Below are positions 3 to 18,619 of a DNA stretch of 33,815 nt, one piece after another. The first letter of the stretch is position 1; the number at the start of each line of letters is the position of its first letter. The position numbers and the translations under genes were made by a program. Origin of the DNA: Acidimicrobiales bacterium (GTDB lineage Bacteria > Actinomycetota > Acidimicrobiia > Acidimicrobiales > SHLQ01); assembly GCA_004282895.1 (NCBI GenBank), contig SHLQ01000011.1, forward strand, positions 1 to 33,815. The letters are read 5' to 3'. The notes under the pieces are model-generated. The model did no database searches and was not told the origin of the DNA. It worked only from the letters and a program-made list of their open reading frames with translations.

Positions 3-848
3 ATGGCGCAGGCGGCCGAGACGGTTGGATTCGACTCCGTGTGGTACGGCGATCATCTGATCTACGACCTGTCGGTCGGCGCCCGGGGTCCATGGGAAGC
101 TTGGACGACGTTGGCCGCAATCGCCGCCAGCACATCGACGATAGAACTTGGCCCACTCGTCGCGTCCACGAGCTTTCATGCGCCGGCCATGCTGGCCAAA
201 CAGGCCGCGACGGTCGATGCAATCTCGGAGGGCCGCCTGATCGTCGGACTCGGCGCGGGCTGGAACAAACGCGAATATGACGCCTTTGGCTTCGCGTACG
301 ACAAGCGGGTGAGCCGTTTCGCCGAAGCATTCACAATTGTCCGCACCCTCCTGACTGAGGGGGAAATCGACTTCCACGGTGACTACTACGACGCGGATCA
401 CTGCGTCCTCCATCCCCGGTCACCGCGTCCCGACGGTCCGCCCTTGATGATCGGTTCGATTGGTCCGCGCATGCTCGGCCTGACGCTTCCCCATGTGCAG
501 GCGTGGAACATGTGGTGGTCGAGCTATGGAAACACCGCTGGCGGTTTCGCGGCCGAGAAGTCTCGGGTTGACGAGCTGGCCGCCGCCGCCGGTCGATCGA
601 CCGGTGACGTGGACGCCACTGCAGCTGTCCTCGTTCGCCTGGACGGCGGGACTGGCAGGCAGATGGGGGACTACGACGCCGAAGCTCAGGCCGCACCGCT
701 CACCGGCAGCCCGGCTGAGCTCGCCGATCAGCTGCGCGAATTCGAGAACGCGGGGGCCGCGCACATTCAGCTCTGCGTCGACCCAATCACTCACGCGAGC
801 ATCGAGTGGCTGGGTGATGTGCTGGTGGAGTTTCGCCAGGAGGGTTAA
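3..848 (+). CDS. LLM class (F420-dependent-type) oxidoreductase, 5' end probably truncated by the window edge
   Basis: 281-aa ORF with luciferase-like monooxygenase pattern (GFDSVWYGDHL, STIELGPLV, EGRLIVGLGAGWNKREYDAFGF). Begins at the window edge; stop TAA 846-848. Confidence 0.85.
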   Translation: MAQAAETVGFDSVWYGDHLIYDLSVGARGPWEAWTTLAAIAASTSTIELGPLVASTSFHAPAMLAKQAATVDAISEGRLIVGLGAGWNKREYDAFGFAYDKRVSRFAEAFTIVRTLLTEGEIDFHGDYYDADHCVLHPRSPRPDGPPLMIGSIGPRMLGLTLPHVQAWNMWWSSYGNTAGGFAAEKSRVDELAAAAGRSTGDVDATAAVLVRLDGGTGRQMGDYDAEAQAAPLTGSPAELADQLREFENAGAAHIQLCVDPITHASIEWLGDVLVEFRQEG

Positions 849-3310
849 CTCCGAGGCCGTTCGTGGCCAGGATCGTAGACACCGTGGTCGTGACGCTGGG
901 CCGGACACGACTCGCCAAAGACATCGATCGTGAAGCCTGACGTCGTCGAGGCGAATTGCCCCTCCACGTAGCCAAGGCAGAGCCGCGAGCCGGTGCGGAA
1001 CCCCATGGAGGCCGACGTCACGAAGCCAACCGCTCGGCCATCCACTCGTATGGGCGCCGAGGGCGCGGGGTCTCCATTCGGGTCCGAAAGGCTCGAGGTG
1101 TCGATCGTCCACACGCCATACGACCACTCGGCTTCTTCTGTCGAGCGCTCAAACGCTGCCGCTCGACCGATGAAGTCTCCTTTGTCGAAATTCACAAAGC
1201 GTTGAATACCAGCGTCGAACGGGGTGTACTCCACGCCGAACTCGCTGCCCCAACCGTGGTAGCCCTTCTCGATGCGCATGGCGTTGAGTGCGTACGAGCC
1301 AAAGTCGCGAAGGCCGAGATCGACCCCGGCTTCCTGCAGGGAGTTGTACACGTCGCACACGTCCTCGTCGGCGAGGTGCAGCTCCCATCCCAGTTCACCG
1401 ACAAAGCTGACCCGCAGTGCCGTGGTGGAGCGACCGGCGACGCTGATGTCGCGAACCGACATCCATGGAGCCGCCTCCTTCGACAGGTCCGCATCGGTGA
1501 GTCGGCACAGCAGATCACGAGAGCGCGGGCCCATCACCATGAGCGTCGATGTTCGATTAGCACCGAACTGGAGCTGCACCGAGCCGTCGCCGGGCAGGTG
1601 ACGGGACAACCAGTCGAAGTCGCGTTCTCGGGCGGCGGTCGGCCCCAGCAAAAGGAATCGGTCCTCTTCGAGGCGCGCAATCGTGGCCTCGCTCCAGACG
1701 GTGCCGTTCGGCCGCAACATGTAGCCCAGTTGCACCCGTCCGAGGGCAGGGATCGTGCTACAGAACATGCCGTCGAGGAAACGCTCCGCGCCAGCACCGG
1801 ACACCTCAAACCGGGTGAATCCGCAATGGTCCATCACCCCGACGCGATCTCGCACCGCCAGACATTCCTGGGAGACGGCCTCATGCCAGTGTTCGTCGCG
1901 ATAGCTGAGCGTGTCGTGCGCGTACGGCTCCGAGCCAAACCAGAAGGCGCGCTCCCATCCAGCGATCTGCCCGAAGCGGGCGTTCTTCGCGCCGAGGGTC
2001 TGATACAGCGGGCTTTGTTGCACCGGACGAGCCGACTCCCAGATGCGGTGAGGGAACGGCTCGCCGTATTGATGTTCGTACAGTTCGCGGACGCGACTCC
2101 GGGTGTAGGTGTTGTGTCCGCTGCCGGTCATGGCCCAGTTGCCGAACCGCCTTGGGTCCCATGGCCACACGTCCCATTCGGTGTCGCCGGCGGTGATCAT
2201 CTCGGTCAGCACCTTGCCGATGGCGGCCGCGTGGGTGATGCCAATCTGCACGCCGACGGCTTGATAGAAGTTCCGGGTTCCGGCGGCTGGGCCCACCAAG
2301 GGATTGGCGTCGGGGGAGTAGGTGATCGGCCCGTTCACAAACTCGGCGATTCCGACCTCTCCGAGAAGTGGCACGTGCGCCATCGCCTGCTCCGCCACGG
2401 CAGCGATGTCGTCGGTGGAGTCCGCGAAGAGGGAGGCGTTGAACGTCGCTGGGGGTCCGTCGTCCCACACCGAGCGGCCCTCATGGCCGTAGTTGCCGAA
2501 CAGGAAGCGGTCCTGTTCCTGGCGAAGGTAGAACATGAGCTCCGGGTCGCGGACGAGCGGAAACGGCGAGGTCATTCCCGCGAGCTCGGCCACGGGGCCG
2601 GTGACCAGGTACTGATGTTCCAGAACGGCGAGAGGCGCCGCGACGTCAGCCATCGCCGAAATCTGCTCGCCGTAGAATCCCGCCGCGTTGATGATGATGT
2701 CGGCCGCGACGACGTAGGGCCCGTTCGGGCCGACGACGTGAACCTCCCACGAAGCACCCGTGTCGACGAGATCGACCACCTCGGTATGGCGGCGAACCTG
2801 CGCCCCTAGCGCCCTGGCTCGACGAGCGAAGCCGTGGGTGAGGCCACTCGGGTCAATGTCGCCTTCGTAGGGGTCCAGCAATCCGGCGATCACGGTTCCG
2901 TCGTCCTGCCAGAACGGGTGCATCTCCTCCATGTCCGCGGTCGAGATGATCTCAAGATCGAACCCGAGACCGGTGGCGACACCCATCAGATGATGGAAAT
3001 GGTCGATCCGACTCGTCGTGTGGCCGGGCCAGAACGCCTGCGTGTGGCGATACGTGATCGGGTCCTCAGGGTCTGCTGCGAGATCGGAGTAGAGCTTCCA
3101 CGCATAGTTGCCGGCGCGCTGACCGAGCCAGCTGTTCGAGAACGTCGGCACGTTGCCGGCTGCATGCCAGGTGGAGCCGGCGGTCAGTTCATGCTTCTCG
3201 ATGAGCACGGTGTCGGTTCGACCCGCCTCCGCGAGGTGCCACAGAACGGATGCACCCACGGCGCCGCCACCAATGATTGCGATGTCGAAGGATTCCTCGA
3301 CGGCGGTCAA
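845..3310 (-). CDS. FAD-dependent oxidoreductase with C-terminal GcvT-like domain (dimethylglycine/sarcosine dehydrogenase-like)
   Basis: N-terminal IIGGGAVGASVLWHLAEAG (Rossmann) and GSTWHAAGN, the usual covalent-FAD histidine context in DMGDH-like enzymes; C-terminal half GcvT-like (FVGELGWELHL, GYHGWGSEFGVEYTP). Start revised from the ORF track (3637) to TTG at 3310, which overlaps the upstream stop as TTGA. Confidence 0.85.
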   Translation of the reverse strand: MTAVEESFDIAIIGGGAVGASVLWHLAEAGRTDTVLIEKHELTAGSTWHAAGNVPTFSNSWLGQRAGNYAWKLYSDLAADPEDPITYRHTQAFWPGHTTSRIDHFHHLMGVATGLGFDLEIISTADMEEMHPFWQDDGTVIAGLLDPYEGDIDPSGLTHGFARRARALGAQVRRHTEVVDLVDTGASWEVHVVGPNGPYVVAADIIINAAGFYGEQISAMADVAAPLAVLEHQYLVTGPVAELAGMTSPFPLVRDPELMFYLRQEQDRFLFGNYGHEGRSVWDDGPPATFNASLFADSTDDIAAVAEQAMAHVPLLGEVGIAEFVNGPITYSPDANPLVGPAAGTRNFYQAVGVQIGITHAAAIGKVLTEMITAGDTEWDVWPWDPRRFGNWAMTGSGHNTYTRSRVRELYEHQYGEPFPHRIWESARPVQQSPLYQTLGAKNARFGQIAGWERAFWFGSEPYAHDTLSYRDEHWHEAVSQECLAVRDRVGVMDHCGFTRFEVSGAGAERFLDGMFCSTIPALGRVQLGYMLRPNGTVWSEATIARLEEDRFLLLGPTAARERDFDWLSRHLPGDGSVQLQFGANRTSTLMVMGPRSRDLLCRLTDADLSKEAAPWMSVRDISVAGRSTTALRVSFVGELGWELHLADEDVCDVYNSLQEAGVDLGLRDFGSYALNAMRIEKGYHGWGSEFGVEYTPFDAGIQRFVNFDKGDFIGRAAAFERSTEEAEWSYGVWTIDTSSLSDPNGDPAPSAPIRVDGRAVGFVTSASMGFRTGSRLCLGYVEGQFASTTSGFTIDVFGESCPAQRHDHGVYDPGHERPRS

Positions 3311-4812
3311 CGGGGAACCTCGAGGTGGATGTCGAATCGTTCGCGTATCGCTCGTTCGTGTGCCTCGGGGAGATGGCCGGGGTTCCCTGCCTCCACGATC
3401 TCCTGAACCCGCGCCGATGCCTGGGCCCACAACTCGGGCGATCCGGCATCGACCCATTCGGCGACGGACGCGCGGTCGCCGATGGTCGGGTAGACGTACT
3501 CGCTGCGCAGCAGCTGAAGGGTCTGCTCGTGGCCAAGGAAGTGGCCGTCGCCCGTCACGACCGACTCGGTGACGGCGAGGTCCAGGTACTCGGGGCGAAC
3601 ATCCACTCCACGTACGGATCGCAGGATCGCGCCGCACATGTCGTCATCGATCACCAGGCTTTCGGGGCTGGCAACCATGATCGAGCCGAGCATGCCGACC
3701 GACAGCTGCACCATGTCGGCACCGGCGTGCGCGGCAAGGGCGACGGTGTACCCCTTCTCGTACCCCGCCTGATTGTCCTGGACCTTCGAATCGGTGATTC
3801 CTGCCGAGACGGCGTGGGGGATGTCGAGCGAACGGAGCAGCTGGGCTGCGGCGGCACTGGAGATGGCTGCCTCGCCGCTCCCGCCGGTCATGGCGCCGCT
3901 CCGGAGGTCAGACACAAACGGCATGAATGCGTGGATACACGGGTGGCCGGGGCGAATGGAGTCCACCAGGACGATGCCCGCGAGGATCTCCGCCAGGCCC
4001 TGCGCCAGCGCTCCGGCCAGCGACGCCGGGCTCGTCGCCCCCGCCTGGCCGGCGCTACAGGTCTGAATGATCATCCCGCGATCGATCGCCCGAGCGATGA
4101 TGTCGCATCCCTCGGACGCGAACCGCAACGGCGGCACGACGTGAACAACGACCGCCATCGAAAACGGCTGACGCGAGAACGCGCCCTCCCCACCGAGTGC
4201 CAAGTCGAACAAGTCCACGACCGGGTCGACATGTTCGGCCGTTGCGAAACTTACCCCGGTTGGTTTCGACGTCGCCGCAGTCGCCGCGAACGCGGTGTTG
4301 ATGTCTAGATCAAGGCTTGACTCCATGTCCCGTGCGACCAATGGCCGGAGCCCGTAGTGCACATGTGGGCTCTCATCGAGAACCCGCATCATCACCCACA
4401 GGTCCTGCAGTGTGGAGTCGCGGTAGCGGCCGGTTGTGGCATCGAGTGACTGGACGGCGGCACCACCCGTGCCGATGTGGACGGCGCCGCCTCCGATCGT
4501 GAGGCCATCATCCTCGACGAAGCCGGGCAACGACACTGAGGAAGGCGATCGCTCCAGAGCGGCTTCGACCATTGGACGCGGCATGGTGAGTCGGCCGTCG
4601 TCGCGTTGAGAGGCCCCCACCTCAATGAGCCGATCGAGGAACGGTGCGGGCGTGCCGGCCATGCCGATCGTCTCGAGGATGTTGAACGCGTGATCCACGA
4701 TGTCGTCGCGCTGGGTGGGTGTGAGCGGCGTGAGCGCGCCGCCGGCGGGTGGCTCGGATGTTCGAGAGGACGGCACACGGGATGATGTGTCGTTTCGGCT
4801 GCCGCGGCGCAT
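3307..4812 (-). CDS. Trimethylamine methyltransferase (MttB) family protein, non-pyrrolysine type
   Basis: 501-aa uninterrupted ORF with MttB/COG5598-like pattern (GIVLVDSIRPGHPCIHAFMPFVSDLRSGAMTGGSGEAAISSAAAAQLLRSLDIP, AGADMVQLSVGMLGS). No in-frame amber codon. Exact start uncertain. Confidence 0.85.
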   Translation of the reverse strand: MRRGSRNDTSSRVPSSRTSEPPAGGALTPLTPTQRDDIVDHAFNILETIGMAGTPAPFLDRLIEVGASQRDDGRLTMPRPMVEAALERSPSSVSLPGFVEDDGLTIGGGAVHIGTGGAAVQSLDATTGRYRDSTLQDLWVMMRVLDESPHVHYGLRPLVARDMESSLDLDINTAFAATAATSKPTGVSFATAEHVDPVVDLFDLALGGEGAFSRQPFSMAVVVHVVPPLRFASEGCDIIARAIDRGMIIQTCSAGQAGATSPASLAGALAQGLAEILAGIVLVDSIRPGHPCIHAFMPFVSDLRSGAMTGGSGEAAISSAAAAQLLRSLDIPHAVSAGITDSKVQDNQAGYEKGYTVALAAHAGADMVQLSVGMLGSIMVASPESLVIDDDMCGAILRSVRGVDVRPEYLDLAVTESVVTGDGHFLGHEQTLQLLRSEYVYPTIGDRASVAEWVDAGSPELWAQASARVQEIVEAGNPGHLPEAHERAIRERFDIHLEVPR

Positions 4813-7264: not shown

Positions 7265-8413
7265 ATGGACCGCATGGGCCGTCGTCAGGGGACCGATGCA
7301 GCGACGCTGATGCGTCATTTTGGATCTGACCGGGATCTTCTTCCGCTGTGGATTGCCGAGCCCGAGATCGCACTTGCCGAACCCATCGTCGATGCGTTGC
7401 GTCGGCGCGCGGCCGACGGTTGGTATGGGTACGAGACCCGACCAGAACCGGTGATCGACGCGTACTGGGATTGGACACAGTCCCGGCATGGATTGGGTCC
7501 GTCAGGACTGCACACCAAGGTCAGCCCCAGCATCGGTACCTCTGTCGGAACGTTGATCGAACTGCTGACGGACCCCGGCGATGGGGTCATTCTTCAGTCC
7601 CCGGTGTTCACGGACTTCAAGACAATCATCGGGGCGGGAGGCCGCTCGGTTGTCAAAAACTCGTTGCTGGAATCCGATGGCGGCTACACCTTCGATTTGG
7701 AGGACCTCGCTGCCAAGGCGGCGGAGAGCCGGAATCGACTGCTCATCCTGTGCAGCCCCCACAACCCCGTGGGTCGGGTGTGGGCCGAGAGCGAACTACA
7801 CGACGTGGCGGCGATCTGCGCCGAGCACGACGTCTTCGTACTCGCCGACGAGATCCACGAGGACCTCGCATTGTCTCCCCATCGATTCGTGCCCTTCGGC
7901 ACTGCCGCCGCAGGGACTGACGTACGTTGGGCGTCGACGAATGGACCCATCAAGACGTTCGGTCTTGCCGGTGTATGTGACACGTTGTTGATCACTCCTG
8001 ACGACGAGGTCGCTGAGCGATTCCAAGACCGGAGCTCGCAGCTGCATCTGACGCGAAACAACGTGTTCGGCATCGAGGCGTTCGAGGTGGCGTACCGTCT
8101 GGGCGGCGACTGGCTGGACGAATTGCTTGTGCTCCTGGCCGCCAACGTGGAGGTGCTGCGATCGACGCTTCCTGCAGAGGTGAAGCTCATGCCGCTCGAG
8201 GGCACGTATCTGGCATGGTTGGATCTGCGCGAGCTCGGACTCGATGTCCCCGAGATCCCCCGGTGGTTGGCGGCGGAGGCCGGCATTGCCATCAGTCCCG
8301 GACATTGGTTCGGCCGTGAGGGCGCCGGCTTCGCCCGGATGACGATTGCGATGCCAACGGAGACGATTACCCAAGCGGCCACACAAATCCGCGACGCGGT
8401 CGCTCGTCGTTAG
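7265..8413 (+). CDS. PLP-dependent aminotransferase/C-S lyase-like (MalY/PatB-related), divergent
   Basis: Fold-type I signatures: YGYETRPEPV, SPHNPVGRVW, LADEIHEDL, putative PLP lysine in NGPIKTFGLAG. Start ATG immediately follows the copZ stop. Confidence 0.85.
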   Translation: MDRMGRRQGTDAATLMRHFGSDRDLLPLWIAEPEIALAEPIVDALRRRAADGWYGYETRPEPVIDAYWDWTQSRHGLGPSGLHTKVSPSIGTSVGTLIELLTDPGDGVILQSPVFTDFKTIIGAGGRSVVKNSLLESDGGYTFDLEDLAAKAAESRNRLLILCSPHNPVGRVWAESELHDVAAICAEHDVFVLADEIHEDLALSPHRFVPFGTAAAGTDVRWASTNGPIKTFGLAGVCDTLLITPDDEVAERFQDRSSQLHLTRNNVFGIEAFEVAYRLGGDWLDELLVLLAANVEVLRSTLPAEVKLMPLEGTYLAWLDLRELGLDVPEIPRWLAAEAGIAISPGHWFGREGAGFARMTIAMPTETITQAATQIRDAVARR

Positions 8414-8480
8414 TTCACAATCGGGTGGAGGGTCGCTTCGATCATGTCTCCGACCCCGGTTCGGTCGTAACTTGGTGCCT

Positions 8481-9464
8481 ATGTACCGCATCGACTGCTT
8501 GCAGTTCGCCAACTGGTCTGAATCGATCTTTCGCGAGATGCGCGAGGGTGAGGTCGATGCGGTTCATGTGACCATCGTGTACCACGAGACGTTCCGTGAA
8601 ACCGTGGCCGAGATCTCCAAATGGAACCGATGGTTTGATCAGCATCGAGACCTGATCCTGCACGGCAAAACCGCAGCGGATGTCGATCGGGCTCGGGAGA
8701 CCAACCGAACCGCGATCTTCTTTGGTTTCCAGAATCCGTCGCCGATCGAAGCCGACATCGACCTCGTCGAGATCCTGCACACGCTTGGTGCACGGTTCAT
8801 GCAGCTCAGCTACAACAATCAGTCTCTGCTCGCGACCGGCTGTTACGAAACGGAAGACCCCGGCATCACCCGGATGGGCAGGGAAGTCATCAAAGAGATG
8901 AACCGGGTCGGACTCGTCGTGGACATGAGCCACTCCGCTGATCGTTCCACCATTGAGGCCGCGGAAGTGTCCGAACGGCCGATCGCCATCACCCACGCGA
9001 ACCCACACGTCTGGCATCCGGCTCTACGGAACAAACGGGACGACGTGATCCGAGCGGTCACGGACAACGGCGGAATGATGGGGTTCTCGCTCTACCCGCA
9101 TCACCTGAGAGACGGATCGGACTGCACGGTGGAGAGCTTCTGTCAGATGGTGGCGGACACGGCAGAGACGTACGGCGTCGAACACTTCGGAATCGGCAGC
9201 GACCTGTGCCAGGACCAACCCGACAGCATCGTGGAATGGATGCGGGTTGGGCGTTGGACGAAAGGTATCGACTATGGCGAGGGCTCCGCATCGGCTCCAG
9301 GCTTTCCGCCGCAGCCATCGTGGTTCGAATCCAACACGGACTTCGGCAACATCGAATCCGGACTCCGTGCGGTCGGTTTCGACGACCACGGAGTTGCTGC
9401 CGTGATGGGCGACAACTGGTATCGGTTCTTCGCCGAGAACTTCGGACCCAGGGAGACGCGGTAG
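8481..9464 (+). CDS. Peptidase M19 (membrane dipeptidase)-like protein with altered metal-ligand motifs
   Basis: M19-like blocks (LGARFMQLSYNNQSLL, RMGREVIKEMNRVGLVVDMSHSADRST, ITHANPHVWHPALRNKRDD, GIGSDLC). Start revised from 8346 to ATG 8481 (MYRIDCLQF). Confidence 0.85.
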   Translation: MYRIDCLQFANWSESIFREMREGEVDAVHVTIVYHETFRETVAEISKWNRWFDQHRDLILHGKTAADVDRARETNRTAIFFGFQNPSPIEADIDLVEILHTLGARFMQLSYNNQSLLATGCYETEDPGITRMGREVIKEMNRVGLVVDMSHSADRSTIEAAEVSERPIAITHANPHVWHPALRNKRDDVIRAVTDNGGMMGFSLYPHHLRDGSDCTVESFCQMVADTAETYGVEHFGIGSDLCQDQPDSIVEWMRVGRWTKGIDYGEGSASAPGFPPQPSWFESNTDFGNIESGLRAVGFDDHGVAAVMGDNWYRFFAENFGPRETR

Positions 9465-12514: not shown

Positions 12515-13177
12515 ATGGCAGACGACGGTGCGCAGGTAACGGTCAAGGAGAACGGTCCATACCTCGTCTCCGGTTCGGTGCCCCTGCGGGTGAAAGAGCC
12601 GATCATGTCTGAACATGGCGAGCCGCTGACCTGGCAGACCGGCGACGCACTGGAGACCCGTGCAACGTACGCCCTGTGTCGCTGCGGGGATTCCGCCAAG
12701 AAGCCGTTCTGCGACGGAGCCCATGCTGCCGAAGGATTCGATGGCACCGAAACGGCGCCTACCGAATCATACGAAGAGCGGCGCAAGAGCTACCCGGGCA
12801 CCGGCATCGAAGTGTTTGATGACCGGGCCACCTGTGTCCATGCCGGGTTCTGTGGAAACCAGGTGTCCAATGTCTGGAAGATGGCTGGTGACACCGACGA
12901 CACGCAGATTCGCGCGCAGGTCATGGCAATGGTCGAAAAGTGCCCCTCCGGGGCGTTGACGTTCGAAGTTGACGGTGCTGCCGTCGAACCCAGCTTGCCA
13001 GCCGAGGTCGGGATCATCCCCGATGGCCCGATCTGGATAACGGGCGGCATTCCCATCGAACGCGCCGACGGCGCGCCGGTCGAGGTCCGAAATCGTGTGA
13101 ATCTCTGCCGCTGCGGCCACTCGGCCAACAAACCCTTCTGTGATGGCGCCCACAAAGAGGCCGGTTTCACCGGCTGA
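12515..13177 (+). CDS. CDGSH iron-sulfur protein with two CDGSH motifs flanking a ferredoxin-like/YjdI-like segment
   Basis: Two copies of the motif (CRCGDSAKKPFCDGAH, CRCGHSANKPFCDGAH). Middle segment has ATCVHAGFCGN and VEKCPSGALTF. Start taken at ATG 12515. Confidence 0.9.
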   Translation: MADDGAQVTVKENGPYLVSGSVPLRVKEPIMSEHGEPLTWQTGDALETRATYALCRCGDSAKKPFCDGAHAAEGFDGTETAPTESYEERRKSYPGTGIEVFDDRATCVHAGFCGNQVSNVWKMAGDTDDTQIRAQVMAMVEKCPSGALTFEVDGAAVEPSLPAEVGIIPDGPIWITGGIPIERADGAPVEVRNRVNLCRCGHSANKPFCDGAHKEAGFTG

Positions 13178-13212: not shown

Positions 13213-13857
13213 CTATGCGGCGATCAGTTCCTTGACGGTGCGGACCAGAACTGCGGCGTTCGGTGCGTACCCGTCCGCGCCGATCTCGTCGGCGTGCTCC
13301 TGGGTTACCGGAGCACCACCAACCAGGATTTTCGTGCCGTCCCGCACGCCAGCTTCGATGAGGGCGTCGATGGTCGTCTTGAGCTCGGGCATGGTCGTGG
13401 TCAGAAAGGCGCTCAATCCGACCGCGTCGGGTTTGTGTTCCGAGATCGCAGCGACGAACTCTTCCGGCGGGACATTGATGCCGAGATCGATCACCTTGAA
13501 ACCGTTGCCTTCAAGCATCACGTTGCAGAGGTTCTTGCCAATGTCGTGAATGTCACCGGCGATGGTCCCCATCACGAACGTCCCAGCGTGGGCGGCGGTT
13601 TCATCCGCGAGATGAGGACGCACAAGATCCATGCCTGCTTGCATGGCCCGCCCGGCGACGAGCATCTCGGGCAGGAAGATTTCGCCCGTTTCGAAGAGGG
13701 ATCCAACCTCCTCCAGCGCCGGAATCATCGAGTCGAACAACATCGTCATCGGTGCGACACCCGACTCGAGTCCGCTCTTCACCTGGGTCACGGCCGTGTC
13801 CCGGTCGCCGCGCACGACCGCGTCGTACAGGACATCGAGTAGTTCTTCGTTGGACAT
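13213..13857 (-). CDS. B12-binding corrinoid protein (MtbC/MttC/MtgC-like)
   Basis: Cobalamin-binding signature GDIHDIGKN (DxHxxG), then SAFLTTTMPELKTTIDAL and GGAPVTQEHADEIGADGYAPNA. Strong SD (GGAGGTAAAC) upstream of ATG. Confidence 0.93.
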   Translation of the reverse strand: MSNEELLDVLYDAVVRGDRDTAVTQVKSGLESGVAPMTMLFDSMIPALEEVGSLFETGEIFLPEMLVAGRAMQAGMDLVRPHLADETAAHAGTFVMGTIAGDIHDIGKNLCNVMLEGNGFKVIDLGINVPPEEFVAAISEHKPDAVGLSAFLTTTMPELKTTIDALIEAGVRDGTKILVGGAPVTQEHADEIGADGYAPNAAVLVRTVKELIAA

Positions 13858-13862
13858 TGGGT

Positions 13863-15026
13863 TTACCTCCGGGCCGCCTCGCGGCCGTATTCCTCCACTG
13901 CATCGACCAAAGCCAGCACGTTCTCTGCTGGCACGTCATTCATGATCGTGTGAACTGACGAGACCATGTAGCCGCCGGTTGGTCCGAGTATGTCGATCAC
14001 GCGTCGCACCTCCGCCCGGACCTCGTCTGGAGTGCCGTGAGGCAGGATCCGCTGGGTGTCGATCGCGCCGCAGAAGACGATCTTCGAACCATAGCGACTT
14101 GCGAGTTCCTCGATGTTCGACATCTTGCCGGCCGAGGTCTGGATCGGGTTCAGAATGTCGATGCCCATATCCACGAAATCGTCAATGAGGGGGAACACAT
14201 CGCCGTCCGTGTGGAAGAACAGTTTCGCGTCCGTCCTGGCCTTGATGAAGTCGACCCAGTCGGCGTGAATCGGCTTGAGCACCTGGCGGTACATATCGGG
14301 TGACATCAGCAGGCTCTCCTGGGTGCCGAGGTCGTCGCCAATCTTGATGATGTCGACATTGGGTCCAAGCGCCGCAAGGAACGGCCCCATCAGTGCCTTG
14401 CACATCTCCTGCAGCTTCCACAACAAGGCCTCAGCGAAGTCTGGATAGATCACCATGTTCATGAGGAACGTGTCCATACCCTGCATGGCGAATGCGCGCT
14501 CGAGCGGAAACAGCAGCCAGGGTGTCGCCATGATCGCGTATTGGCCGTCATCGGCGAGCTGCTTGGCCTGCTCGGCCACATGGGCGATGCGGGTGGGGTC
14601 GGTCATGTCCGGCCACTCGTGGGCCTCGATCTCCTCGACGGTCGTAGCGGACGCGAGCGGGTGCACCATGGGAAACCAGTCGCCCGGTTTGATCTCACGT
14701 GCGCCGGATCCCCAGGAGTCGACGTAGTCGCTGTGGGGTTCGCGGCCTCGATTGCGGCCGAGCACCGTGGCCGGCTCAAGGTCAAGCACACCACGAACGT
14801 CCGAGTGAAGTCGCAGCATGGTTTCCTCATCGATCGCGGCCGTGCCGAGCTCGGGCCAGTCGTAGAGGTAGTCATCAGGCGCATCGATGCCGAGCAACAC
14901 TTTGAGCTTCTGGTAGGTCGCCATCTTGATGCCGGTCGCGTTGCTCGTACCGAGCACGATGGGCGGGCGATCGGGGACCTCATGGTTGATCGCCATGAGA
15001 ACCCGGTCCCGTGGGGTGATATCCAT
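13863..15026 (-). CDS. Uroporphyrinogen decarboxylase (UroD)-family methyltransferase-like protein
   Basis: MDITPRDRVLMAINHEVPDRPPIV, FFHTDGDVFPLIDDFVDMGIDILNPIQTSAGKM, FCGAIDTQRILPHGTPDEVRAEVRRVID. Start revised to ATG 15026, overlapping the upstream stop by 1 nt (TGATG). Confidence 0.9.
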   Translation of the reverse strand: MDITPRDRVLMAINHEVPDRPPIVLGTSNATGIKMATYQKLKVLLGIDAPDDYLYDWPELGTAAIDEETMLRLHSDVRGVLDLEPATVLGRNRGREPHSDYVDSWGSGAREIKPGDWFPMVHPLASATTVEEIEAHEWPDMTDPTRIAHVAEQAKQLADDGQYAIMATPWLLFPLERAFAMQGMDTFLMNMVIYPDFAEALLWKLQEMCKALMGPFLAALGPNVDIIKIGDDLGTQESLLMSPDMYRQVLKPIHADWVDFIKARTDAKLFFHTDGDVFPLIDDFVDMGIDILNPIQTSAGKMSNIEELASRYGSKIVFCGAIDTQRILPHGTPDEVRAEVRRVIDILGPTGGYMVSSVHTIMNDVPAENVLALVDAVEEYGREAARR

Positions 15027-16573
15027 CAGCTCTGCTCGGCCGCCGCGAAGGCGCTGGGGAATCGGGCCAAAAACGCGATGACCAGTCGGAGCTCGCGTTT
15101 GTCGACACATTCGCCGATCTTGTGCGTGTTCTGCTCGATGCCGGGGCCGAATCCGAACATCGCCGGATGTTTGAAGCCGCTCTCTGATATCCACGCCTTT
15201 GAGTCAGGCACAGCGATCGAGGCGTTGTCCTCCGGAATCGGGAATCCGACGCCGTCGGTGGAGAAGATCCAGCGATCGACGCGGGCTTCCTTTCGTAGGC
15301 CGCCGTCTTCTCGAGGCGATGGATCCACGTTGGGGGCAACAACGGCTTCGTAGACCTCGGACGCGGTGGTGATGGCGGCGTGATCCTCAGGTGTGGTCCA
15401 GCCCATGTAGATCTGCTCGTTGCCGAGGGAATACCCGTTCCAGGTCGTGCGCTCATAGACGGGCACGGCGATGTCGACCGTGAGACCGGCGTCGCGCGCA
15501 GCGGACACCGCGTCGAGACGCTCGACATCGGCCAACGCAGCCGCAGGAAGCTCGCCTGCCGTCAGTCTGCGATCAAAGCGGAAGGTGAATCGATCGGGCA
15601 CGGCGCAATCGCTGGGCGTCTCGAGTTGCGACCACGACGCCGTTCGCGTGCCGTGACCGAGGAACGGGTCGTCGAGGAAGCCGTCGCGGGCGTCGTAGCG
15701 CTGTGCTGCCTCGGCGATGATTGCGCCACCGAACTCGAGTGGATTCAGTCCTTCCCACGGCATCGAGCCATGGCATGAGCGGCCCGTCACGGTGACTTCG
15801 ATCTGCATGCGGCCCCGTTGCCCTCGGTAGATGCCGAGAGCACCCTTGTGGGCGTCGCCGGTGCCTTCCGTGAGGATGACCACGTCCGGCACAAGGTCGG
15901 GCGTAGCTCCTGGGAGCACCTCCTTCATCAGATACATGGGACCGCCCCCGTCGTTGTCCTCCTCGCACACGGAGCCGTAGGCCCGGATGACGACACCTTT
16001 GAGCGCTCCCTCGGGCGCAAGTTCGAGCGCGATCTTTGTGGCCAGAATCTGCGAAATGACGCCGCTGAGCTGGTCGGCGGAACCCCGGCCGAAGATCAGG
16101 TTGTCCCACTCGTCGTCGGGCGGGACATGACCCAACTCGCTGCGCAGGAAGTCCCGATCCACGGCGTCGATGTCCACGAGGCCGTCATAGGCGTCGATTC
16201 CCCCGAGCTTCTCCCGCCAGGCGCCACGCAGGGCTTGCACCGTGTCCGTGTGACCGTCGAAGTAAACGACCTTCTTGTCATCGGGATGGATGCCATCCTC
16301 GGGGTCGGTGACGAACCAGACGAGGTTGCCGTAGTCGTCGAACCAGACATCCTCAGGAAAGCGCACCGCACCGATATCTACGATCGATTGCTTCAGGAAC
16401 TCGAGTCGGGGTTGTTCGTGGTTGCTCAGTCCCGATTCCGGGTCACCGCCCGCGTCGGCATCGCGGTCCACGTAGTCCGCGGGGATGCGGATCGCCTCAC
16501 GCAGGATTTCACTGGCGAGATCGAGATACAGCGCACTCAGTTCCGCGACCCGAGTGTCCAGATTGGCGGTCAT
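15026..16573 (-). CDS. M20 family metallohydrolase (YgeY-like)
   Basis: VVYFDGHTDTV, FGRGSADQLSGVISQIL, VCEEDNDGGG and the C-terminal GPGIEQNTHKIGECV indicate an intact M20 metal site. Confidence 0.85.
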   Translation of the reverse strand: MTANLDTRVAELSALYLDLASEILREAIRIPADYVDRDADAGGDPESGLSNHEQPRLEFLKQSIVDIGAVRFPEDVWFDDYGNLVWFVTDPEDGIHPDDKKVVYFDGHTDTVQALRGAWREKLGGIDAYDGLVDIDAVDRDFLRSELGHVPPDDEWDNLIFGRGSADQLSGVISQILATKIALELAPEGALKGVVIRAYGSVCEEDNDGGGPMYLMKEVLPGATPDLVPDVVILTEGTGDAHKGALGIYRGQRGRMQIEVTVTGRSCHGSMPWEGLNPLEFGGAIIAEAAQRYDARDGFLDDPFLGHGTRTASWSQLETPSDCAVPDRFTFRFDRRLTAGELPAAALADVERLDAVSAARDAGLTVDIAVPVYERTTWNGYSLGNEQIYMGWTTPEDHAAITTASEVYEAVVAPNVDPSPREDGGLRKEARVDRWIFSTDGVGFPIPEDNASIAVPDSKAWISESGFKHPAMFGFGPGIEQNTHKIGECVDKRELRLVIAFLARFPSAFAAAEQS

Positions 16574-17673
16574 TGGTTTCCTTCCTCAAGAGACGTCAAT
16601 ACGGCATCCAACTCCGGAACCTTGGCCCCGGCGAGAAGCGCCATTACGACGTACATCTTCCAGTTGGCCTCACGGGCCACGTTCACCTTGTGTTGCTCCA
16701 TCACGCCGGCGCTGACTTCGGCGCCGATGTCTGCGGGCAAGCAGTGCATGTACAACGCGTCTCCCTCACGAGTCGTCGCCATTCGTCGCTCGTCGCAGAT
16801 CCAATCTGTGAACTGGGCGTTGCGTTCCAGTGCTCGACCCTCGATTGCGGCGAGCTCGTCCTTGTCGCCAGAAGCGTTGGCATCGACCCGGTCCACCATG
16901 AGGTCGTAGGCGCCCCAACTCTTGGGATAGACGACGTCGGCGTCGGCAAAAGCTTCATCCATGGAGTCGACGACACGGAACGATCCTCCGCCCGCGGTGT
17001 TGCTCTCGGCGGCAGCCATTGTGGCGTCGGTGAGCTGGTAGCCAGGCGGGTGGGCGAGGGTCACGTTGGCCCCGAAACGGGTGAGCAACGTAACGAGCCC
17101 TTGCGGAACCGACAGTGGCTTGGCGTAGGAAGGGGAGTAGGCCCAGCTCACCGTGATGTTCCGATCGGCGAGGTCGTCGAAGTTGTCTTCGAGCCAGAGG
17201 AGATCGGCCATCGTCTGGGTGGGGTGGTCCACATCACACTGCAGGTTCACGATCGGAACCTTGCGGCTGTCATCCGTGGCGGCGAGGTAGTCGTCGATGC
17301 CGGTCTTGATGTCACGGATGAACGTATTGCCCTCCCCGAGGATGAGGTCGTGGCGGATGCCCATCGCGTGTGCGTTCATCCCGAGCATGGCGCCGGTCTC
17401 GATCGCCGTCTCTCCATGGGAAACCTGGGTTGATGATCCGTCGACGATCACGGGCTGCATACCGAGCCGAGCCGCCGCGCCTCCCCATGCGCTCTTGGTG
17501 CGGGTCGATTGGTCGAAGAACACGGCCCAGGCGAGCTCGTTCGGACACAACGGGGTCTTGATGCCCTGTCGATCGAGCGCTGCCAACCTTCGGGCAACGG
17601 TTCGAACTGCATGCAACTTGTCGATCGACCACTCCTGGGTGGTCAGCAGACTCTCACCGAGGTAGCTGGTCAT
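16570..17673 (-). CDS. Aspartate/ornithine carbamoyltransferase family protein (YgeW-like, knotted)
   Basis: FDQSTRTKSAWGGAAARLG (carbamoyl-phosphate loop), SWAYSPSYAKPLSVPQG, MHCLPADIGAEVS. Start revised to ATG 17673; ATGA overlap with M20 gene. Confidence 0.87.
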   Translation of the reverse strand: MTSYLGESLLTTQEWSIDKLHAVRTVARRLAALDRQGIKTPLCPNELAWAVFFDQSTRTKSAWGGAAARLGMQPVIVDGSSTQVSHGETAIETGAMLGMNAHAMGIRHDLILGEGNTFIRDIKTGIDDYLAATDDSRKVPIVNLQCDVDHPTQTMADLLWLEDNFDDLADRNITVSWAYSPSYAKPLSVPQGLVTLLTRFGANVTLAHPPGYQLTDATMAAAESNTAGGGSFRVVDSMDEAFADADVVYPKSWGAYDLMVDRVDANASGDKDELAAIEGRALERNAQFTDWICDERRMATTREGDALYMHCLPADIGAEVSAGVMEQHKVNVAREANWKMYVVMALLAGAKVPELDAVLTSLEEGNQ

Positions 17674-18619
17674 TGTCCCTCCTGATGTGGGTGCCGGCGG
17701 CTCCATCCACCGCGGTCACGAGATCGGCCGGGCTGCAGATGATCATTTCGCCATCTATCTCGTCGAGGTAGCTGATGGCAGCCTCGACTTTGGGTCCCAT
17801 ACTTCCGGCGGCGAAATGGCCGGCAGCGGCCAGCGTGGATGCCTCGGCCCTGGTTAGCTCGGGCCGCGGCGTGGGCGAATCGGAGTAGAAGTCCTCGTAG
17901 ACGTAGTCCACGCTGGTTGTGATGATCAGCTTCGGCGAGCCAAGTTTCACGGCCAAGACCATGCTGACCCGGTCCTTGTCGATGACCGCTTCGTGACCCA
18001 GGATCTGGCCATCGTCGGTTTTGCTCACGGGGATACCTCCGCCACCGCAGCAGATCACCGTGATGCCGAGGTCGCACAGCTTCTGGATTGTGGACATCTG
18101 AACAATGCGGACTGGCTGGGGGGAAGGCACGACTCGTCGAGCGCCGCGTCGCGGATCCTTCATCAGCTGCCACCCGTGCTCGGCAGCCAGCGCTTCGGCC
18201 TCGTCGAGGTCGTAGAACCGGCCGATCGGCTTGTTGGGGGACTCGAATGCCGGATCGTTGGGATCAACCTCCACCTCGGTCACGATCGTCACGACGTCGG
18301 TGTTGTTACCCCGTTGACGAAGTTCAGCCCGCAGCGCTCGTTCGATCATGTATCCCATCGCCCCTTGGCTGTCGGCGACGAGCGAATCGAGGGGAACCTC
18401 GGGAACGGTCCCGGCCGCAAGTTCGGAACGTAGTTGCATGAAGCCAATCTGCGGGCCGTTGCCATGGGTCAGGACGAGGTGTTCGCCCCGTTCAATGAGA
18501 TCGGCGACCGGCTTCATCGCCTCGCGGGTTACCGCGAACTGGTTGGCAACCGTCGGAGGGAGATCGGGCTCCAGCAAAGAGTGTCCGCCGATCGCGATGA
18601 CGGTAGGAGGTGCTGCCAC
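17654..18619 (-). CDS. arcC: Carbamate kinase
   Basis: VIAIGGHSLLEP, LVLTHGNGPQIGFMQLRSELA, VICCGGGGIPV, AVIDKDRVSMVLAVKL, HFAAGSMGPKVEAAISYLD. GTG start; 20-bp overlap with the downstream gene. Confidence 0.93.
   Translation of the reverse strand: MAAPPTVIAIGGHSLLEPDLPPTVANQFAVTREAMKPVADLIERGEHLVLTHGNGPQIGFMQLRSELAAGTVPEVPLDSLVADSQGAMGYMIERALRAELRQRGNNTDVVTIVTEVEVDPNDPAFESPNKPIGRFYDLDEAEALAAEHGWQLMKDPRRGARRVVPSPQPVRIVQMSTIQKLCDLGITVICCGGGGIPVSKTDDGQILGHEAVIDKDRVSMVLAVKLGSPKLIITTSVDYVYEDFYSDSPTPRPELTRAEASTLAAAGHFAAGSMGPKVEAAISYLDEIDGEMIICSPADLVTAVDGAAGTHIRRDNDQLPR

Follow-up and report, generated by a model that had tools for sequence, protein, structure and literature searches.

Reductive degradation of urate in Escherichia coli and clostridia was worked out in 2025 and involves XdhD, YgfK, SsnA, HyuA, YgeW, YqeA, YgeY and YgeX (PMC12507026, PMC12990295). 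The published route leads from urate over yanthine and ureidomethyl-hydantoin to diureidopropanoate, whose ureido groups are removed by YgeW through phosphorolysis, giving carbamoyl phosphate and from it ATP, and by YgeY, with YgeX acting last; these are the roles held by YgeW, YgeY and YqeA of E. coli (PMC12507026, PMC12990295). A different group of described systems transfers methyl groups to corrinoid proteins with enzymes of the UroD superfamily, i.e. MtaA/MtbA, CmuA, MtvB/OdmB, MtoB and CdmBCA (PMC10418091, PMC13222342). In this superfamily a His-Cys-Cys zinc site marks S-methyltransferases, whereas carboxylate or non-coordinating substitutions mark O-methyltransferases (Kountz and Balskus, PMC10418091). 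Here we describe a five-gene operon, at positions 13213-18619 on the minus strand of a 33,815-nucleotide stretch (the window) from an Acidimicrobiales bacterium, in which relatives of both groups are joined. The operon probably combines two functional units in one transcript, a urate-type cassette of three genes and an independent methyl-transfer pair.

The window comes from a metagenome-assembled genome (MAG) of the class Acidimicrobiia, 3.48 Mb in size and 85% complete, in which it lies on contig C55. The five reading frames are all uninterrupted and point in the same direction. The first encodes a carbamate kinase of the ArcC/YqeA-like type (17654-18619, 321 aa, GTG start), followed by a YgeW-like transcarbamylase (16570-17673, 367 aa) with AGGAGG ahead of its ATG, and an M20 metallo-hydrolase of a long YgeY-like form (15026-16573, 515 aa). 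The last two encode a UroD-superfamily corrinoid methyltransferase, presumed to act on the substrate (13863-15026, 387 aa from the ATG at 15026), and a corrinoid (B12-binding) protein resembling MtgC/MtaC (13213-13857, 214 aa). As read from the sequence, the kinase and YgeW genes overlap by 20 bp, the YgeW/M20 junction is ATGA (4 bp overlap) and the M20/UroD junction is TGATG with 1 bp in common; a gap of 5 bp follows the UroD gene, and a strong Shine-Dalgarno sequence (GGAGG) precedes the ATG of the corrinoid gene. Gene calls, order, strand and overlaps had been given in this way in a preliminary description of this DNA, and were confirmed by the reading frames, the junctions and the Pfam matches. 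A search for promoter-like sites across the region found none. Terminator-like sites were at chance level (3, against 3.1 expected from shuffling); the scan had no minus-strand site inside the operon and one at 13160-13174, directly past the corrinoid gene. All five genes are predicted to be co-transcribed. Their GC content at third codon positions is 0.75-0.81, resembling that of the neighbouring genes, and therefore gives no sign of a chimeric contig.

Pfam matches were judged against gathering scores, and family identity against NCBIfam cut-offs. The carbamate kinase matches AA_kinase (PF00696) with 77.7 bits, above the gathering score, and PRK12352 with 289 bits, over the cut-off of 266; its score for arcC (TIGR00746), 329.6 bits, is just below 358.25. 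Both transcarbamylase domains of the YgeW-like protein are above gathering (OTCace PF00185, 82.5 bits; OTCace_N PF02729, 77.9 bits), and its best families are PRK07200 YgeW (357.7 bits, cut-off 453) and TIGR03316 (332.6 bits, cut-off 500), in both cases short of the equivalog cut-off. The best PDB match is 3q98 with 331.7 bits. Alignments with 3q98, 2yfk and 19 homologues show that the carbamoyl-phosphate and substrate-domain motifs of the E. coli type of YgeW, STRT, HPTQ, WAYSPSYxKPLSVPQG, YPKSW and HCLPAD, are kept invariant. For the M20 protein, Peptidase_M20 (28.9 bits) and M20_dimer (34.9 bits) are above gathering scores, and PRK13004 YgeY is matched with 187.1 bits, missing the cut-off of 321. 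The residues presumed to bind metal or to act in catalysis (H108, D110, D167, E204, E205, E236 and H484) are invariant in 18 orthologues, and a structure model of low confidence (61.6) resembles M20 enzymes, which supports the fold only.

Scanning the YgeW-like protein against bacterial and archaeal species genomes gave 48 loci, of which about 30 form one clade with YgeW identities of 59-85%. Its members come from a planctomycete, from Acidimicrobiia, Myxococcota, Acidobacteriota and Eisenbacteria, and from further groups. Nearly all clade loci have a long M20 gene of this kind adjoining YgeW, in most Acidimicrobiia loci the kinase gene comes ahead of YgeW, and 4-bp overlaps often recur. Since gene order and overlaps are repeated, the cassette is not a product of chance but an operon under selection. 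The nearest relatives of the window protein on the YgeW tree are from Acidimicrobiales MAGs. In one cassette locus (L036) the M20 gene seems split by about 4 kb carrying a further carbamate kinase and transcarbamylase on the opposite strand, either an insertion or an assembly chimera. A second YgeW-like group of the same class (L006-L032), with 35-39% identity by blastp, often adjoins a carbamate kinase and another, more distant transcarbamylase.

The commonest neighbour families of the cassette match YgfK (TIGR03315), SsnA (TIGR03314) and the selenium-dependent xanthine dehydrogenase (XDH; TIGR03311); two PALP proteins and a CN-hydrolase are further neighbours, and in one locus (L045) SsnA, YgfK, YgeW and M20 genes are contiguous. 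The window genome encodes relatives of these on two other contigs, C15 and C91: a YgfK-like protein (436.8 bits), an SsnA-like protein (191 bits, cut by the contig end), an XDH-like protein (760 bits), a CN-hydrolase and two PALP proteins, in a gene order matching that of another cassette genome (G966). C15 and C91 are probably adjacent, as the SsnA-like gene is truncated at both ends. A D-hydantoinase on contig C261 scores 545.9 bits and is the sole relative of XdhD, YgfK, SsnA or HyuA in this genome to pass its cut-off. Because the neighbour families and the candidates in the genome resemble enzymes of the reductive urate pathway, the cassette likely has the same function as the E. coli and clostridial set: most likely it carries out the last steps of that pathway, yielding carbamoyl phosphate and ATP. 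The link to purine-derived substrates proposed in the preliminary description is well supported by the SsnA, YgfK and XDH-like genes that adjoin the cassette again and again, and the catabolic direction it assumed, from carbamoyl phosphate to ATP, agrees with the published roles of YgeW and YqeA.

On C261, the D-hydantoinase is grouped with a hydantoin racemase, a fused HyuA/HyuB of the N-methylhydantoinase type and an M24 protein (L211, L213); the group also holds a reading frame that by eye resembles monomeric sarcosine oxidase. The YgfK-like protein of the window genome (L175, 6296-8098) has 601 aa, in which the Pfam scan found Fe-S domains alone and none for a pyridine nucleotide; the form in L045 has 1194 aa, and the electron donor of the 601-aa form may differ.

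The UroD-like protein matches URO-D (PF01208) with 97.1 bits, above the gathering score. Uroporphyrinogen decarboxylase (HemE) was rejected as its identity, with TIGR01464 at 19.1 bits against a cut-off of 302.95 and a stronger URO-D gene elsewhere in the genome (392.8 bits, contig C253), which is presumably the true HemE. MtaA/CmuA (TIGR01463) is matched with 68.1 bits, missing the cut-off of 235.4. In an alignment to MtaA (4ay7; 56.5 bits with the family profile) the His-Cys-Cys zinc positions correspond to His272-Asp274-His359; Asp274 is retained in the closest orthologues, and orthologues of about 67% identity have Cys. His-Asp-His at the presumed zinc site disfavours a thiol:corrinoid methyltransferase, and by the published residue rule a non-thiol methyl donor is likelier. 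A structure prediction from the single sequence had a predicted local distance difference test score of 39.9 and was set aside. The corrinoid protein matches B12-binding (PF02310, 99 bits) and B12-binding_2 (PF02607, 71.3 bits) above gathering scores, and its DxHxxG motif (D102-x-H104-x-x-G107) is invariant in the alignment. MtgC is its best NCBIfam family with 204.8 bits, far below the cut-off of 370. Another contig, C307, encodes a methyltetrahydrofolate:corrinoid methyltransferase (PRK07535, 344 bits, over cut-off), an AcsV/RACo-like activator (347.8 bits), a corrinoid protein and an MttB-like enzyme; this set could supply steps absent from the operon.

The five-gene operon was sought in the approximately 30 cassette loci, in 58 relatives, in 396 genomes of the order and in 395 of the phylum, and was not found. 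No UroD or corrinoid gene stands beside the cassette in any of the approximately 30 other loci, and this holds for the nearest relatives (75-83% identity) as well. In a congener with an M20 protein 84% identical, the gene after M20 is unrelated; the same genome has, on another contig, a UroD (38% identical) and a corrinoid protein (50%) adjoining a homocysteine-methyltransferase-like gene, a label taken from a similar gene in L170. UroD orthologues of 66-70% identity occur in five genomes with no cassette, as a single UroD gene in four, all of one genus; no cassette was found in the genomes of the G451 and g437 UroD orthologues. In other genomes the UroD orthologues are alone or beside unrelated genes, e.g. 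M24 hydrolases. The 29 other cassette genomes were also searched whole: most have no close UroD, and three have one, at 83-85% identity in this search and never near the cassette. Two of these three carry the UroD-corrinoid pair at other loci (G968, 85% and 73%; G974, 82% and 69%), and the pair is therefore a real unit; in the third, UroD is alone and has one internal TGA. The UroD-bearing rows are scattered on the YgeW tree. No UroD of at least 80% identity was found in the 396 other genomes of the order, giving Fisher p-values of 3e-5 for 3/14 cassette genomes of the Acidimicrobiia clade and 3e-4 for 3/29, in a comparison of samples from different collections with kinship uncorrected. So far, the pair at the cassette tail is private to this genome. 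The expectation that UroD and corrinoid genes would be conserved next to ygeW-ygeY-arcC thus fails by the standard of the preliminary description itself, as the neighbourhood survey places them there in no genome but this one.

At one locus (L205) an M24 gene resembling ectoine hydrolase (DoeA, 517.8 bits; 7626-8813) is directly 5' of a UroD-corrinoid pair on the same strand, with a cytochrome P450 ahead of it. The M24 protein of C261 is 84% identical to one located about 1.5 kb past the pair in G968. Two further associations were judged weak. Creatinase genes near UroD in four genomes are convergent to it and form no operon, and for a UroD-M24-hydantoinase link via L205 and L211 a divergent acyl-CoA-dehydrogenase-like frame lies between.

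In the reading that we favour, and hold to be probable, YgeW would act on 2,3-diureidopropanoate by phosphorolysis, turning one of its ureido groups into carbamoyl phosphate, from which the kinase would make ATP, the carbamate decaying to NH3 and CO2. The M20 enzyme would hydrolyse the other ureido group to give diaminopropanoate, and the upstream enzymes would be those encoded elsewhere in the genome. Independently, UroD would move a methyl group from a non-thiol donor (a methyl ether, an N-methyl compound or similar) to Co(I); the MtgA-like methyltransferase of C307 would pass it to tetrahydrofolate and the RACo-type activator of C307 would reactivate the corrinoid protein. The UroD-corrinoid pair would have been joined to the end of the cassette within this lineage. 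This reading builds on the gene identities, the conservation and spread of the cassette, the urate-pathway candidates, the pair at other loci and the zinc-site residues; the reactions, the substrates, the co-transcription and the recent date of the fusion we infer.

Several observations weigh against it. YgeW, YgeY, SsnA, YgfK and XDH of the window genome all score below their NCBIfam equivalog cut-offs, and the substrate may therefore be a compound related to urate. The search for YgeX gave no clear candidate: the pair of PALP proteins adjoining SsnA have no match to a YgeX model at 1e-10 and only weakly match cysteine-synthase and threonine-dehydratase families, so that they are at most tentative YgeX proteins. 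The urate-type genes and the cassette are on separate contigs of an incomplete MAG. Among the genomes searched, UroD of at least 80% identity is confined to those bearing the cassette, and the close spacing at the M20/UroD and UroD/corrinoid junctions (1 bp and 5 bp) might reflect cooperation of the two units. The case for functional unity of the whole operon consists of gene overlap and of the suggestive, uncorrected co-occurrence.

Such unity was proposed in the preliminary description: one substrate could carry both a ureido or carbamoyl group and a methyl group (for example methylhydantoin, an N-carbamoylsarcosine-like compound or a methylated purine derivative such as methylated urate), the methyl being taken by UroD and the corrinoid protein and the carbamoyl by YgeW and the kinase. 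The tight overlaps and the three UroD-bearing cassette genomes against none in the order speak for this, as do the HyuA/HyuB fusion together with the D-hydantoinase on C261, and an Asp ligand suits a non-thiol donor. However, no other genome has the pair next to its cassette, most cassette genomes are without a close UroD, and elsewhere the pair adjoins a DoeA-like M24 gene and a P450, or nothing; moreover, we found no paper linking corrinoid demethylation to methylxanthines. We consider a joint substrate unlikely, and slightly more so its specific form, in which the pair demethylates a purine or ureide intermediate (e.g. derived from methylurate or methylhydantoin) in a corrinoid-dependent route for methylated purines. 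The earlier interpretation accordingly stands in its gene calls, overlaps, purine link and catabolic direction and not in its joint substrate; we regard it as partly upheld because the operon is physically tight and UroD of at least 80% identity was seen only in cassette genomes.

Two other explanations were considered. The corrinoid protein might serve an MttB-family methyltransferase of the window (3307-4812, minus strand; MTTB, 301.9 bits) and the dimethylglycine/sarcosine-dehydrogenase-like protein after it (845-3637, minus strand; DAO and GCV_T domains), making the operon tail part of betaine or methylamine use rather than of the cassette. These domain matches in the same window and MtgC as best family agree with this idea, which we nevertheless find unlikely: 8 kb with opposite-strand genes lie between, the MtgC score is far below its cut-off, C307 has a separate MttB-corrinoid-MtgA-RACo set, and the corrinoid gene accompanies UroD in G968 and G974. 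A match to Rfam PYLIS_3, the mttB pyrrolysine insertion sequence, occurs at 3706-3798 (40.2 bits); the UAG position reads ATC, and the window MttB is therefore a non-pyrrolysine homologue. Alternatively, the cassette might serve to break down a ureide of an amino acid or a polyamine with no connection to purines, as in citrulline- or carbamoylputrescine-like catabolism. To this, the missed equivalog cut-offs and a CN-hydrolase similar to N-carbamoylputrescine amidase after M20 in some loci would be favourable, but the YgeW-specific motifs common with the E. coli type and the recurrence of SsnA, YgfK and XDH-like neighbours make it quite improbable.

In the cassette we see a new and diverged branch of a pathway already known, widespread and largely explained; the five-gene operon, which this genome alone was found to have, is an unusual addition to it. 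A search of literature that lacked most subscription journals yielded no described pathway combining these genes. The survey extends the final part of the reductive urate pathway, elucidated in gut anaerobes, in a diverged version to Acidimicrobiia, Myxococcota, Acidobacteriota and further groups. Since at least some of these genomes also have the upstream genes, purine use becomes testable in uncultured lineages. The attached pair further allows testing whether corrinoid demethylation feeds the urate-type route. If it does, by demethylating a methylated ureide or purine, one operon would draw ATP from the carbamoyl group of the substrate and one-carbon units from its methyl group; if not, two unrelated modules share one transcript.

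As in the reductive urate pathway, one operon brings together the three kinds of last-step enzymes; the genome also encodes relatives of the upstream enzymes, and the YgeW motifs are kept. Unlike in that pathway, the M20 protein is long (515 aa, where the YgeY models have 395-399 positions), the YgfK-like protein is short and has no detected pyridine-nucleotide domain, the genes are split over several contigs with no YgeX identified, and the operon carries UroD and corrinoid genes in addition. As in the UroD-superfamily systems, a UroD-type gene is followed by that of a two-domain DxHxxG corrinoid protein, and the genome has relatives of the methyltetrahydrofolate:corrinoid methyltransferase and the activator, although these are outside the operon, and the window UroD is only remotely similar to characterised members, with His-Asp-His at the zinc positions. 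The glycine betaine Mtg system consists of the MttB-family MtgB with MtgC and MtgA. The window corrinoid protein resembles MtgC without reaching its cut-off, and its partner is UroD-like rather than MttB-like.

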